Below, in pieces: positions 3,236-7,336 of a DNA stretch of 44,317 bases. Numbering within the stretch: the stretch's first letter is position 1; the number at the start of each line of letters is the position of its first letter. The notes beneath the pieces are model-generated. The model searched no databases, was not told the DNA's origin, and worked only from the letters and a program-made list of their open reading frames with translations. Source of the stretch: Acidobacteriota bacterium (GTDB lineage: Bacteria > Acidobacteriota > Terriglobia > Acidiferrales > UBA7541); assembly GCA_003223215.1 (NCBI GenBank), contig QHYH01000125.1, positions 1 to 44,317 of the forward strand, written 5' to 3'. Both the position numbers and the translations under genes were made by a program.

Positions 3236-3490
3236 TCACTCCTCATCTTCCTCTTCGTATTCTTCTTCCTCTTCCTCGTCCGAATAGTCGCCGTCCTCTC
3301 CCATCTCGCTCTCCTCTTCCTCCTCCTCCTCTTCTTCGTCTAAATCGTCGGAGATGACGTTCAAATGAACGGGGTGCGTTTGCGACACCTCGAGCTCGGA
3401 TTCACACTCGGGGCAGCTCAGAATCTCGCCTTCCTCGACTTCTTCTTCATCGACATCGATTTCTGCGGAACATTCAGGGCAACGGATCAC
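3236..3490 (-). CDS. LysW-like zinc-ribbon protein with polyacidic tail
   Basis: I start this at GTG 3490 because GGAGG lies 8 bases upstream; the frame is open to 3574, but the extra 28 residues are Arg-rich and unlike the family. The 84-residue product begins with a zinc ribbon, CPEC (4-7) and CPEC about 22 residues later. The spacing and sequence (AEIDVDEEEVEEGEILSCPEC) resemble LysW, the amino-group carrier protein of the alpha-aminoadipate lysine route. After the ribbon comes HPVHLNV and then about 45 residues that are almost all Glu and Asp, ending in Glu. Ordinary LysW is about 55 residues with a short acidic tail, so this tail is unusual. No other lysine-biosynthesis gene is in the window. 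Carrier function is inference; a general acidic zinc-ribbon protein is the alternative. Confidence 0.68.
   Translation of the reverse strand: MIRCPECSAEIDVDEEEVEEGEILSCPECESELEVSQTHPVHLNVISDDLDEEEEEEEEESEMGEDGDYSDEEEEEEYEEEDEE
3238..3348 (-). repeat. Low-complexity GAA/GAG tract encoding the acidic tail
   Basis: About 110 bases are nearly pure pyrimidine on the plus strand and purine on the minus strand, made of irregular GAA/GAG/GAT codons. The runs are imperfect, so this is compositional bias of coding origin rather than a clean microsatellite. Length change by slippage would alter the tail without disturbing the zinc ribbon, provided it stays in frame. Confidence 0.6.
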
Positions 3491-3588
3491 AGCGCCAGCC
3501 TCCGGACACTTGTCTGCAAAGTGGCGGTACGAGGACCGTCCCCGCCACCTGCAGCGTATTATATACCGAGGCATGGAAATTCAACCTC

Positions 3589-4089
3589 TTGCCCGTGAAC
3601 GTGAGGCTCGCCCAAGTGGCCTCTTCCAGAGAATACCCTGACCGCCCGGTGATCGGCGTGGGCGGCGTGATCATCGACCAAGGCCGGACCGTGCTCATTC
3701 GTCGTGGTACCGAGCCCTTGCTTGGCGAATGGTCCATCCCTGGCGGCAGCGTCGAAATTGGGGAAACCCTGGAGGAAGCGGTCCGCCGCGAATTGCGGGA
3801 AGAAACCGGGCTGGAGGTTTGCGTTCTCGAGTTGATTGAGCTTTTCGACCGCATTTACCCGGATGAAGGTTCTGCCTCGGCGAACGGCAAAAAGAAGCCG
3901 CGTTTCCATTACGTCATCGCCGACTATCTCTGCGGGCTGGTGGGCGGCGAACCGCGCGCCGGCAGCGACGTGACCGACCTAGCTTTTGCCCGGGAAGGGG
4001 AACTTGGCAGATTTGAGTTAACGGAAAAAGCGACGTCAGTTCTAAAGAAGGCCTTCGCCATGTCCCGGGCGCGCGCCGCCGGCCAATAA
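3589..4089 (+). CDS. Nudix hydrolase
   Basis: The 166-residue protein has a complete Nudix box at residues 53-75 (GSVEIGE, then RELREETGL), the magnesium-binding catalytic helix of enzymes that cleave nucleoside diphosphates linked to another moiety. The preceding WSIPGG segment is also typical. It resembles the ADP-ribose pyrophosphatase / MutT-like group, but the substrate cannot be set. The start is uncertain: the longest frame begins with TTG 3589, GTG 3595 is two codons later, and neither has a strong ribosome-binding site. It diverges from the LysW-like gene (98 bases apart) and converges on the DUF4097 gene. Confidence 0.88.
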   Translation: MPVNVRLAQVASSREYPDRPVIGVGGVIIDQGRTVLIRRGTEPLLGEWSIPGGSVEIGETLEEAVRRELREETGLEVCVLELIELFDRIYPDEGSASANGKKKPRFHYVIADYLCGLVGGEPRAGSDVTDLAFAREGELGRFELTEKATSVLKKAFAMSRARAAGQ

Positions 4090-4117: not shown

Positions 4118-5767
4118 TTACGGCGCCTTGGTAATCTCGATGCTTCCGTTTGTATCGTTGAGCTGCAGCGCGCAGCCTCCCCCATTGATCGTTCCGTTGA
4201 GCGTGTCTCCGCCGATGCTCCCGGTTGACGTAACCGGCAGATCCGAAGAAACCCTGCCGAACGAGGTGTGCGCGGTGAGGTTGTACCCCAGTCCCTGTGG
4301 AATCTGCACGCGGATGGACGAAAACGAAGTTTTCAACAGGATGTCCCGGCAGCCGCTGGTCGGGCGGCTGGCCGTCACGGCGATCCCGCCGTTCTGGTTG
4401 TCCACGCTGATCTTCCCGCCGATCCCGTCGAGTGTAACGCCCGCGAAAGATGTCCTCACGTTTGCGTCGCCTTTCACGTTTCGCGCCGTTACCGAGCTGT
4501 TGTTGTTCTCTACGGTTAAATTCCCGTTCACGCGCTCGATCAAAACGCTGCCAAAGCTCGTTTTCGCATAAGTGTCTCCGCCAATATCCGCGAGTGTGAT
4601 CGCACCATTCCCGTCTGTTGCCCTGATCCCCTTCGGGATGTTGGAGGCATCGATGGCCCCGAAAGAGGTCCTGAGCGTAACGGTCCCGCGCGCGTCGCGA
4701 ACCGTGATCCTTCCATTGGAGGTCTCGGCGTCCAGCGTGCCGCTCACGGTGTCCAGCTCGATGTTGCCGAAAGAATCGTGAATCGTCACGGAACTGCCGG
4801 TCAGCGCGCTCCCTTTTACTCGGCCATTGCTTGTCGTGCAGCTCACGCGCCCATGAACATCCGAGAAGTTGACGTTGCCAAAGCTGTTGGTGATATCCGC
4901 GGCCCCGCCAATCGTGCCGACCTCCACGTTACCGTTGTTGTCGTGGACGGTCAGATCACCCTTCACGTTGCGCGCATCCACGCTCCCGAAGGAGGTCGTA
5001 ACGTTGCCGGCTGCGGCGTCCGACAAGGTAATCGCGCCGTTGCCTCCGTTGATGGTTGCCGCTCCCTGGATATTTTTCGCCGTGATGCTGCCGAAGCGGT
5101 TGCGCACCTCGAGCGTGCCCTTTACGTCGTACACTTGCACGGAACCGTTCGTGTCCGTCACCGATACGTTCCCGCCCGCGCCGGTTAACTCAATGCTCCC
5201 GAAGGAATTGTTTACCCGCGCCGCCCCCACGTCGCGCATCGCAATGCTGCCGTGGCTGTTGTCAATATCGGTACTGGCGTGGATACCGGAAGCTTCGGTG
5301 CTCCCGAAACTGTTGCGCACATTGAGGGGCGCGTCCGACGGCATCGCAATGTCGTAGTTCACAGAATAGGAGGTATTCCTGCCGAGATGAAACCATCTGC
5401 TTTCTTGTTCGGGATAAACGGTCTTGATGCGCAACCCCTCGGCTGTTTGCTGCACTTCGATTTGTATTTTGTCGGCAAAAGACTGCGCCTCGTCGTGCGA
5501 ACCGGCCTGCGCGCGAATTGTGGCGGAAATCTTCACCTCGCGCCCGGGTTCCCCGTGGACGCGCACTTCTCCAAATTTGTGCTCGATGTGGACGGACTGC
5601 CCCGCGCGGAGCGTCACGCTCTTCTGAAAATCCCTTGATACTTCTTCCTGGCCGCGATTGGTGGCCGCTGCGCATTGCCCTGCGGCAAAAAACATCGCGC
5701 CGACCAGCGCCTTCGCAGAGGCGCGACGCCATGGTCCTTTGCAAAAACCCCGTCTGAGCCGATTCAT
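4118..5767 (-). CDS. DUF4097-family exported beta-solenoid protein with alternating rungs
   Basis: The 549-residue product has an N-terminal signal-like segment (hydrophobic about 20-35), a mixed domain to about 150, and then a long array of short beta rungs to about 530. The rungs alternate strictly: one begins with SFG and is 19 residues, the next begins with NG and is 17. About ten such pairs are visible, for example near SFGNIELDTVSGTLDAETS and NGRITVRDARGTVTLRT. This matches the DUF4097 / putative adhesin beta-strand repeat family, thought to form a right-handed solenoid in the periplasm or at the surface. Its ATG shares one base with the stop of the anti-sigma gene (TAATG), so it is the third gene of a sigma / anti-sigma cassette and is probably co-expressed with it. 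Binding partner unknown. Confidence 0.85.
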   Translation of the reverse strand: MNRLRRGFCKGPWRRASAKALVGAMFFAAGQCAAATNRGQEEVSRDFQKSVTLRAGQSVHIEHKFGEVRVHGEPGREVKISATIRAQAGSHDEAQSFADKIQIEVQQTAEGLRIKTVYPEQESRWFHLGRNTSYSVNYDIAMPSDAPLNVRNSFGSTEASGIHASTDIDNSHGSIAMRDVGAARVNNSFGSIELTGAGGNVSVTDTNGSVQVYDVKGTLEVRNRFGSITAKNIQGAATINGGNGAITLSDAAAGNVTTSFGSVDARNVKGDLTVHDNNGNVEVGTIGGAADITNSFGNVNFSDVHGRVSCTTSNGRVKGSALTGSSVTIHDSFGNIELDTVSGTLDAETSNGRITVRDARGTVTLRTSFGAIDASNIPKGIRATDGNGAITLADIGGDTYAKTSFGSVLIERVNGNLTVENNNSSVTARNVKGDANVRTSFAGVTLDGIGGKISVDNQNGGIAVTASRPTSGCRDILLKTSFSSIRVQIPQGLGYNLTAHTSFGRVSSDLPVTSTGSIGGDTLNGTINGGGCALQLNDTNGSIEITKAP

Positions 5768-6455: not shown

Positions 6456-7148
6456 CTACCCCGCGCTGCTTCGCGGCGGTTCCAGCATTTCGCGCAAGTT
6501 TTTCTTCGCCTGAAACAGCGTGTTTTTGGACGCCGCCTCGGAAATCTCCAGCATCCCGGCAATCTCCGCGTGCCGGAATCCTTCCACTTCGTACAGCAGA
6601 AAAACGTCGCGCTGATGACGGGTAAGCTTCTCGAGCGCGCGCACGAGCGCTATCCGCAATGACGGATGAGCTCCCGGCGCACGAGGTTCCCGGCGCGGTG
6701 TTTCCTCCGAGTCGTCGTCGGTCGTCACTTCTTTTTTCCGCAGCCGGCTGCGCCGCGCGTCGTAGCACGTGTTGATCAGGATCCGGTACGTCCAAGTCAC
6801 AAAGCTCGATTGCCCGCGAAAACTCGCAATGCTCCGCTGCACTTTGAGGAACGTCTCCTGCACCGCGTCTTCCGCGTCCGCGGCGCTGCCCAGCACGTTA
6901 CGCGCAAGGTTTTTCATCCGCGCGCCGTGCAGCACGTACAACCGCTCGTATGCGCGCAGGTCTCCTGCCCGGCAGGCTGCAGCCAGCGCGGCGTCTTCGT
7001 TTGCGGGTTTCGCCCCCGCCTGGGCCGGGCCGCCGGTCAGGTGCTCGGAAGGTCCCACTCGCGTCTCCCACCTGCCTATCGCGGCAGGTTCGTGCAGCGC
7101 GGAAGTGATTCTAGTCTTCCAGGGCAGCGCAAGTCCCATCGTTCCCAT
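6456..7148 (-). CDS. ECF RNA polymerase sigma factor
   Basis: I start at ATG 7148, which has AGGAG six bases upstream; a longer frame begins at 7253 and a second ATG is at 7139. The 230-residue protein has sigma region 2 (about 58-135, with DAEDAVQETFLKV and FVTWTYRILINTCYD) and region 4 (about 165-222, with LTRHQRDVFLLYEVEGFRHAEIA). An acidic and Arg-rich linker joins them. It directs RNA polymerase to a small regulon and is followed at once by its probable anti-sigma factor. The first 50 residues are an unusual extension, and its DNA contains a perfect 7-bp palindrome (7070-7089), as if a small palindromic element was absorbed into the reading frame. Confidence 0.9.
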   Translation of the reverse strand: MGTMGLALPWKTRITSALHEPAAIGRWETRVGPSEHLTGGPAQAGAKPANEDAALAAACRAGDLRAYERLYVLHGARMKNLARNVLGSAADAEDAVQETFLKVQRSIASFRGQSSFVTWTYRILINTCYDARRSRLRKKEVTTDDDSEETPRREPRAPGAHPSLRIALVRALEKLTRHQRDVFLLYEVEGFRHAEIAGMLEISEAASKNTLFQAKKNLREMLEPPRSSAG

Positions 7149-7336
7149 TCCTGGCTCCTGTGGAATAGACGACACAACGCAGGGAAACGTCAGGGGGCTC
7201 GATGCCCGGCCGCCGTCCTGGCCGCATGCGTTGGCCGGCGCCAAACAGCCCATTTAACTCATTTGTTTTGTTCGGAGTAGCTGGTCTTTTAAGAGCACGT
7301 TTGGAATCCGCCGCATCCCTTGCGGGAGGGTCTAGT

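Follow-up and report, generated by a model that had tools for sequence, protein, structure and literature searches.

The Toastrack-type protein encoded at 4118-5767 of the window (the whole stretch of DNA analysed, 44,317 nucleotides of contig QHYH01000125.1 from an Acidobacteriota bacterium) has 18 consecutive rungs, in which phenylalanine alternates with, mostly, asparagine before a conserved glycine. We suggest, with a probability of roughly 55%, that it is the secreted Toastrack of an auto-regulated ECF envelope-stress operon and that aromatic residues occupy every second coil for packing; the function is what we infer. The alternation is real and well conserved, but the register and the spatial meaning that a sequence-only reading had given it were wrong.

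The gene and its operon

The gene had been placed correctly at 4118-5767, but it lies on the minus strand and encodes 549 residues. The one-base overlap with an anti-sigma gene and the membership of a sigma/anti-sigma operon, both proposed earlier, were found as described: the anti-sigma stop overlaps the Toastrack start by one base (TAATG at 5767), and in 34 of the 34 other aligned orthologues the neighbouring same-strand gene encodes an anti-sigma factor. The features are as follows.

4118..5767, minus strand: Toastrack-type beta-solenoid gene, 549 codons, read from 5767 to 4118
5660..5767, minus strand: signal-peptide-like N-terminal segment (residues 1-36), read by eye as a hydrophobic stretch followed by A-x-A; pLDDT below 50 at residues 1-37
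5318..5650, minus strand: N-terminal cap region (residues 40-150), first K-F-G turn at 63-65; the VIA alignment to 3PET spans model residues 40-267
4328..5311, minus strand: 18 rungs (residues 153-480), 18-residue spacing, F/N alternation preceding the conserved glycine
4121..4327, minus strand: irregular C-terminal coils (residues 481-549), containing C532
5767..6426, minus strand: anti-sigma factor, H-x3-C-x2-C at residue 26, hydrophobic segment at 96-114, about 105 residues beyond it
6456..7148, minus strand: ECF sigma factor, regions 2 and 4; likely start ATG 7148, longest ORF from 7253
7166..7192, minus strand: ECF-type promoter TGAC-N17-CGTCTA, 17 bases before the likely start at 7148

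The sigma gene product matched Sigma70 region 2 (65.6 bits) and region 4 (56.2 bits), both over the cut-off, and TIGR02937 (92 bits, cut-off 42.9). Its start is likely ATG 7148, judging by conservation, and a CAGGAG ribosome site precedes it. A sigma gene was found for 33 of these 34 orthologues; the remaining one, L029, has just 822 bases of upstream sequence. The anti-sigma protein combines H-x3-C-x2-C with one hydrophobic segment (19-residue hydropathy average), as a zinc-motif membrane anti-sigma factor should, and scored 25.3 bits against the curated anti-sigma model NF052375, under its cut-off of 100. Pfam FliT, the sole match at 0.01 for this protein, fell below its cut-off.

The upstream regions of the window and of 12 hand-chosen orthologues out of 34 were aligned; GAC and CGTCTAT are identical in 13/13 regions and TGAC is present in 10/13. 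The CGTC element is typical of ECF promoters. TGAC-N17-CGTCTA showed no enrichment: the own genome has 14 sites and its reversed control 13, and across 36 genomes of the genus 162 sites compare with 445 in the control, so the motif points to no further regulon member; conservation supports the predicted promoter of the sigma gene itself, and only that one. The Toastrack gene would be the third of an auto-regulated operon for ECF sigma, membrane anti-sigma and Toastrack.

Two other genes lie beyond its 3' end. A NUDIX gene (3589-4089, plus strand) is convergent with the Toastrack gene, and a relative stands on the opposite strand in the flank of 21 of the 25 same-genus aligned orthologues (exceptions L030, L036, L037 and L040). 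The minus-strand gene at 3236-3574 encodes a LysW-like zinc-ribbon protein (PF21344, 42.5 bits), the zinc ribbon being followed by a long acidic run.

Two cysteines of the Toastrack protein, C473 in the last regular rung and C532 in the C-terminal coils, are each invariant (35/35 aligned rows) and may form a disulphide. Together with the signal-like N-terminus, they suggest that the protein is probably secreted. This conflicts with the intracellular location predicted for the Toastrack superfamily by Ravi et al. (PMC11237479).

Rung register

The conserved glycines of the 18 rungs span residues 155 to 460. Of the 17 intervals between successive glycines, fourteen measure 18 residues, two measure 17 and one measures 19, so each rung type has a length of 18. 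At position -1, directly before the glycine, the 18 rungs read FHFNFNFNFNFNFNFNFN: F, H, then F and N in turn, ending in N. Position -2 is mostly S in the F-type rungs and mixed in the N-type rungs. By order alone, nine F would fall in alternate places among 18 rungs with a probability of 4e-5. Past residue 460 the rung spacing turns irregular (23, 21, 21 and 16).

The alternation of two rung types was thus rightly seen in the sequence-only reading, and it runs through 18 consecutive rungs. The rung lengths of 19 and 17 residues assigned to them are rejected, since 14/17 glycine spacings are 18: the rungs had been counted from the S of S-F-G and from the N of N-G, and the apparent 19/17 arises because this S sits two places, and this N one place, before the conserved glycine. 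No DNA tandem repeat is left in the gene, so the rung repeat is probably old.

Conservation and parity in orthologues

Alignment A1 holds the window protein and 34 orthologues (35 rows, 35-83% identity), drawn from 37 distinct homologues above 200 bits; L059 and the partial frames L032 and L038 were left out. At L038 (genome G008, contig C156, 46079-47571) the orthologue is split between two reading frames, one of its pieces contains an internal stop, and sigma and anti-sigma genes are present upstream. The nearest homologues belong by title to acidobacterial metagenome bins, apart from one of six, L013 (CAJCHZ010000062.1), which is titled Betaproteobacteria; its Toastrack is the same as that of L027 from the window's genus, and the title is probably wrong.

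Phenylalanine occupies 304 of the 308 odd (F-type) cells, the exceptions being three Y and one S, and asparagine occupies 273/273 even cells of rungs 4 to 18. Rung 2 is mostly histidine (H 23, Y 5, N 3, Q 3, F 1), which makes the N-terminal end of the alternation imperfect.

Every gap longer than four residues within residues 150-470 is 35-37 residues long, corresponding to two rungs. Extra 36 residues were detected in L039, L045 and L046; 37 residues are missing in L040 and L041, and 37 in L047-L050, with 35 further missing in L050. These differences require at least four indel events, all of two rungs, so F/N parity is kept. The events are few: if one-rung and two-rung events were equally likely, four indel types would all be of two rungs in 1 of 16 cases.

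The earlier proposal extended the 36-residue period to the whole unit, which the alignment does not bear out. With positions -2 and -1 set aside, mean identity in the 35-row family is 0.259 between rungs of the same type and 0.256 between rungs of different type. Type dependence among sixteen positions was detected at -1 (p 0.0005) and -2 (p 0.0015) and weakly at +6 (permutation p 0.03); the 36-residue superperiod is confined mainly to positions -2/-1. These results bear on whether the alternation is no more than a relic of an array that grew by duplicating a 36-residue unit of two rungs. The two-rung indels in orthologues fit such growth, but odd and even rungs are about equally alike outside -2/-1 (and weakly +6), the DNA retains no repeat, and history alone would not hold one position while others drift, making this origin quite improbable as the full explanation.

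Predicted structure

AlphaFold2 run on A1 gave a beta-solenoid (mean pLDDT 89.4, pTM 0.79) akin to Toastracks in fold, as the sequence-only reading had anticipated in proposing a solenoid. The only stretches of at least three residues with pLDDT below 50 are 1-37 and 122-129. The typical 18-residue unit of the model consists of two strands, of six and five residues, and two turns, one of three residues (x-G-x) and one of four ([S/N]-[F/N]-G-x); on the predicted models such a unit would form one coil.

Coils of 18 and 36 residues were compared on a fragment of three units (residues 259-312, 54 residues; alignment A2 of 32 sequences), modelled with moderate confidence (pLDDT 79.9, pTM 0.54). Strands were predicted at all six places, the middle unit included, which disfavours a 36-residue coil, where the strands of the middle unit would lack a partner. 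Isolated bridges were detected only at fragment residues 2 and 20, corresponding to F260 and N278, 18 apart. The bridge output names no partners, and on the simplest reading F260 would pair with N278, which indicates a predicted coil of 18 residues. With an 18-residue coil, F and N would alternate along one corner and not on two faces.

Two chemically different faces or edges had been proposed earlier, and the fragment model argues for one corner instead. A coil of 36 residues, with F stacked on F along one edge and N stacked on N along the opposite edge, would agree with the uniform ladders found in relatives, and identical-residue ladders are usual in beta-solenoids. Yet the fragment shows strands in all three units with bridges at 2 and 20 only, and a coil near 18 also agrees with the long stretches over which other beta-helices align (rmsd 2.7-3.7 Angstrom), so we hold two faces to be very improbable.

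Foldseek found 4QRK (E 6.3e-6) as the sole match below 0.001 and the best solved match. VIA gave Z 16.5 for 3PET, 15.3 for 3JX8, 15.2 for 3LJY, 15.0 for 3LYC, 14.8 for 4OPW (model 37-285), 14.1 for 4QRK (model 43-240) and 14.1 for 4YGU; it also matched tailspikes and other beta-helices sharing the general fold, up to Z 17.9 for 7EEA. We take 3PET, 3LJY, 3LYC, 3JX8 and 4YGU to be members of the Toastrack superfamily, presumably DUF2807-type relatives. 4QRK and 4OPW are named as Toastracks by Ravi et al. (PMC11237479). The beta-helix fold and an N-terminal cap as in 4QRK and 4OPW (Foldseek, VIA) place the window protein in this superfamily.

Sequence profiles recovered the family unevenly. The window protein had no match at E 0.01 to PF13349 (Toastrack DUF4097, cut-off 22.9 bits), and PF13349 matched 6/35 aligned members at E 0.01, among them L043, 42% identical to the window protein, with 38.6 bits. 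Alternating proteins elsewhere were matched at 64.9 (L051), 95.3 (L060) and 78.6 bits (L061); the F/S alternators L053 and L059 had no match at 0.001. The only Pfam match of the window protein at 0.01, T2SSN, was rejected (19.2 bits, under its cut-off of 29.6). A phmmer search of PDB sequences with the window protein returned one match (E 0.65). In the PDB profile search 9e5c (E 2.7e-14) was read as spurious, a low-complexity repeat with bias nearly equal to the score, and otherwise 6unv appeared at E 0.5.

Ladder types in the wider family

We derived a rung caller from A1, masking positions -2 and -1, and applied it to the best Toastrack frame at each of 131 loci, which include several genes taken twice (seven such named). 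Frames with fewer than six rungs or scoring under 50 were dropped (22 loci), leaving 109. As controls, 200 shuffles of the window protein scored no higher than 15.2, and the maximum for seven other genes of the window was 15.5. The 109 proteins formed 58 clusters at 50% identity, with one representative each, and alternation was called by an order-shuffling test on side-chain volume (p < 0.01).

The -1 ladder alternates in 17/58 clusters, as F/N (10), Y/S (3), Y/H (2), F/S (1) and Y/N (1); it is uniform in 19 (G 12, S 6, H 1) and mixed in 22. Sampling began from the F/N query and 60 further regions were hand-picked among the matches listed, so these shares are not prevalences. The expectation that homologues would keep the alternation holds for the 35 aligned orthologues, with F/N, but fails in the uniform and mixed clusters of more distant relatives. 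Position -2 alternates too in L056 and L071 (S-F, then E-S), and mostly in L113 (S-Y, then E-H).

Aromatic residues avoid each other at -1, with 14 adjacent pairs observed in the 58 representatives against 66.4 expected from random order. Such pairs occur in 8/58 representatives (L021 in its first rungs, L054, L062, L065, L066, L109, L111 and L121), and these, with the mixed ladders, indicate that the fold does not require alternation. V, I, L and M make up 2.1% of the 619 ladder residues and 75.2% at five inward positions, so the ladder corner does not face the core. Tryptophan occurs once among the 619.

Some ladders differ from all of these. L105, representing a three-member cluster (L098 is alike), alternates H with D or N, without an aromatic (p 0.03), possibly a charge or metal row. 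A tblastn search of plasmids returned one record, from Paenibacillus cellulosilyticus (L154), with a Toastrack-like frame of six rungs, DNNNNN, near-uniform and not alternating, which lies outside the phylum Acidobacteriota. The own genome (G000) has two adjacent Toastrack frames at each of C49 63571-64696 and C279 89106-91284, and further copies on C103 (S ladder), C130, C215 (uniform D ladder) and C266; the C130 copy carries a LiaI-LiaF-like membrane part just under the cut-off.

Ladder type and sigma lineage

The G ladders of L076, L081, L090 and L119 and the S ladder of L125 also have sigma and anti-sigma neighbours, indicating that alternation is not needed in this setting. Of the 58 cluster representatives, 24 have a same-strand sigma gene upstream in the flank examined; a tree was built by a quick method from these 24 sigma factors and those of four more F/N members (28 in all), and its L125 branch is long. 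The F/N rows fall on one side of a branch (13 rows, SH-aLRT 83), the G-ladder group has five rows (99) and the Y/S group two (99), and F/N, F/S and Y/S come together with 86. Nine ladder labels need 8 changes on this tree, the minimum, which 0/200 shuffles match. Ladder type goes with the lineage of the sigma cassette in these sequences, although kinship between close relatives would by itself group the labels, and several groups consist of one row each. At L092, L094, L115, L121 and L129, 580-754 bases separate the anti-sigma end from the Toastrack start, leaving room for another gene.

A bolder and unlikely extension is that one corner of the Toastrack rod, on the solvent side, bears an inherited ladder code; this would be either uniform (G, S) or alternating (F/N, F/S, Y/S, Y/H, Y/N) and would match the sigma-factor lineage. 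Each code would be a distinct linear binding or assembly edge spaced by one or two coils, by which each sigma cassette might read a different envelope polymer or partner.

Packing, binding and function

We propose that the -1 residue sits at one corner, off the aliphatic core and at least partly exposed; the direction of its side chain is suggested by composition. The ring of a corner aromatic (phenyl or phenol) probably covers the turn of the next coil. Two aromatics in succession would then be disfavoured; aromatics would fall in every second coil, and the coils between them would carry something small or polar (N, S or H) at this position. Indels of two coils would keep this parity, as they do in the orthologues.

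The same corner could be read as a binding edge for a glycan, a peptidoglycan strand or another linear polymer that repeats about every 10 Angstrom. The usual coil rise of beta-solenoids is 4.8 Angstrom, and aromatics two coils apart would be spaced about 9.6 Angstrom, with a hydrogen-bonding residue between. An edge of this kind would also suit a position outside the core, the range of pairs (F/N, F/S, Y/S, Y/N, Y/H and the D,N/H row), the near-total conservation of F and N in orthologues and the probable extracytoplasmic setting suggested by the N-terminus. Against it, tryptophan, common in sugar-binding platforms, is nearly absent from the ladders, and phenylalanine is kept over tyrosine in the aligned family (304 versus 3), which fits partial burial rather than full exposure. 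We consider a binding edge doubtful, and prefer packing of aromatics in every second coil.

The packed rod would probably stand in the periplasm or on the surface, reporting on the envelope or buffering it. By analogy with LiaX, whose C-terminal part restrains LiaFSR, the Toastrack may feed back on the membrane anti-sigma factor encoded by the same message. Nearly as likely as such feedback is that the Toastrack is an output of the sigma factor only, a surface rod or adhesin that strengthens the envelope without sensing. The shared operon, the signal-like N-terminus and the length of the rod would suit this, as would the fact that several of the solved structures matched are titled 'putative adhesin' or 'cell adhesion protein'. 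However, two papers favour a regulatory role: Toastracks recur beside regulators in many systems, envelope-stress ones included (PMC11237479), and the C-terminal domain of LiaX is reported to be inhibitory, loss of LiaX switching LiaFSR on (PMC11601895).

A literature search, with most subscription papers outside its reach, found no naming of the alternation. The fold and the type of regulatory neighbourhood are already known; what is new is the alternating corner, its parity and its association with sigma lineage. One corner position, uniform or alternating by lineage, points to a testable feature of Toastracks, and a solenoid that can space bulky residues every second coil, with parity held over long divergence, is useful for repeat-protein design.

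Relation to known systems

The window protein resembles the Toastrack superfamily (DUF4097/DUF2154/DUF2807) in its beta-helix, in an N-terminal cap that aligns with 3PET and in its association with a stress regulator, an association that includes sigma factors (PMC11237479). It differs in its 18 regular rungs, in the aromatic/Asn alternation at one corner, in the signal-like N-terminus where the superfamily is predicted to be intracellular, and in lacking a DUF4097 Pfam match.

LiaX and LiaG of the LiaFSR system likewise have a Toastrack-type domain beside an envelope-stress regulator, and their profile matches are weak: 42 bits for LiaG (NF049997; cut-off 285, E 6.5e-11) and 22.4 bits for the C-terminal part of LiaX (NF038025; cut-off 350, E 4.4e-5). 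The regulator in the window is instead an ECF sigma/anti-sigma pair, and no PspC, LiaF or histidine kinase was detected by Pfam among the nine window genes scanned. Other ECF sigma/zinc-motif anti-sigma pairs share regions 2 and 4, H-x3-C-x2-C with one hydrophobic segment and the CGTC promoter; the window adds to such a pair a third, overlapping gene for a predicted solenoid protein.
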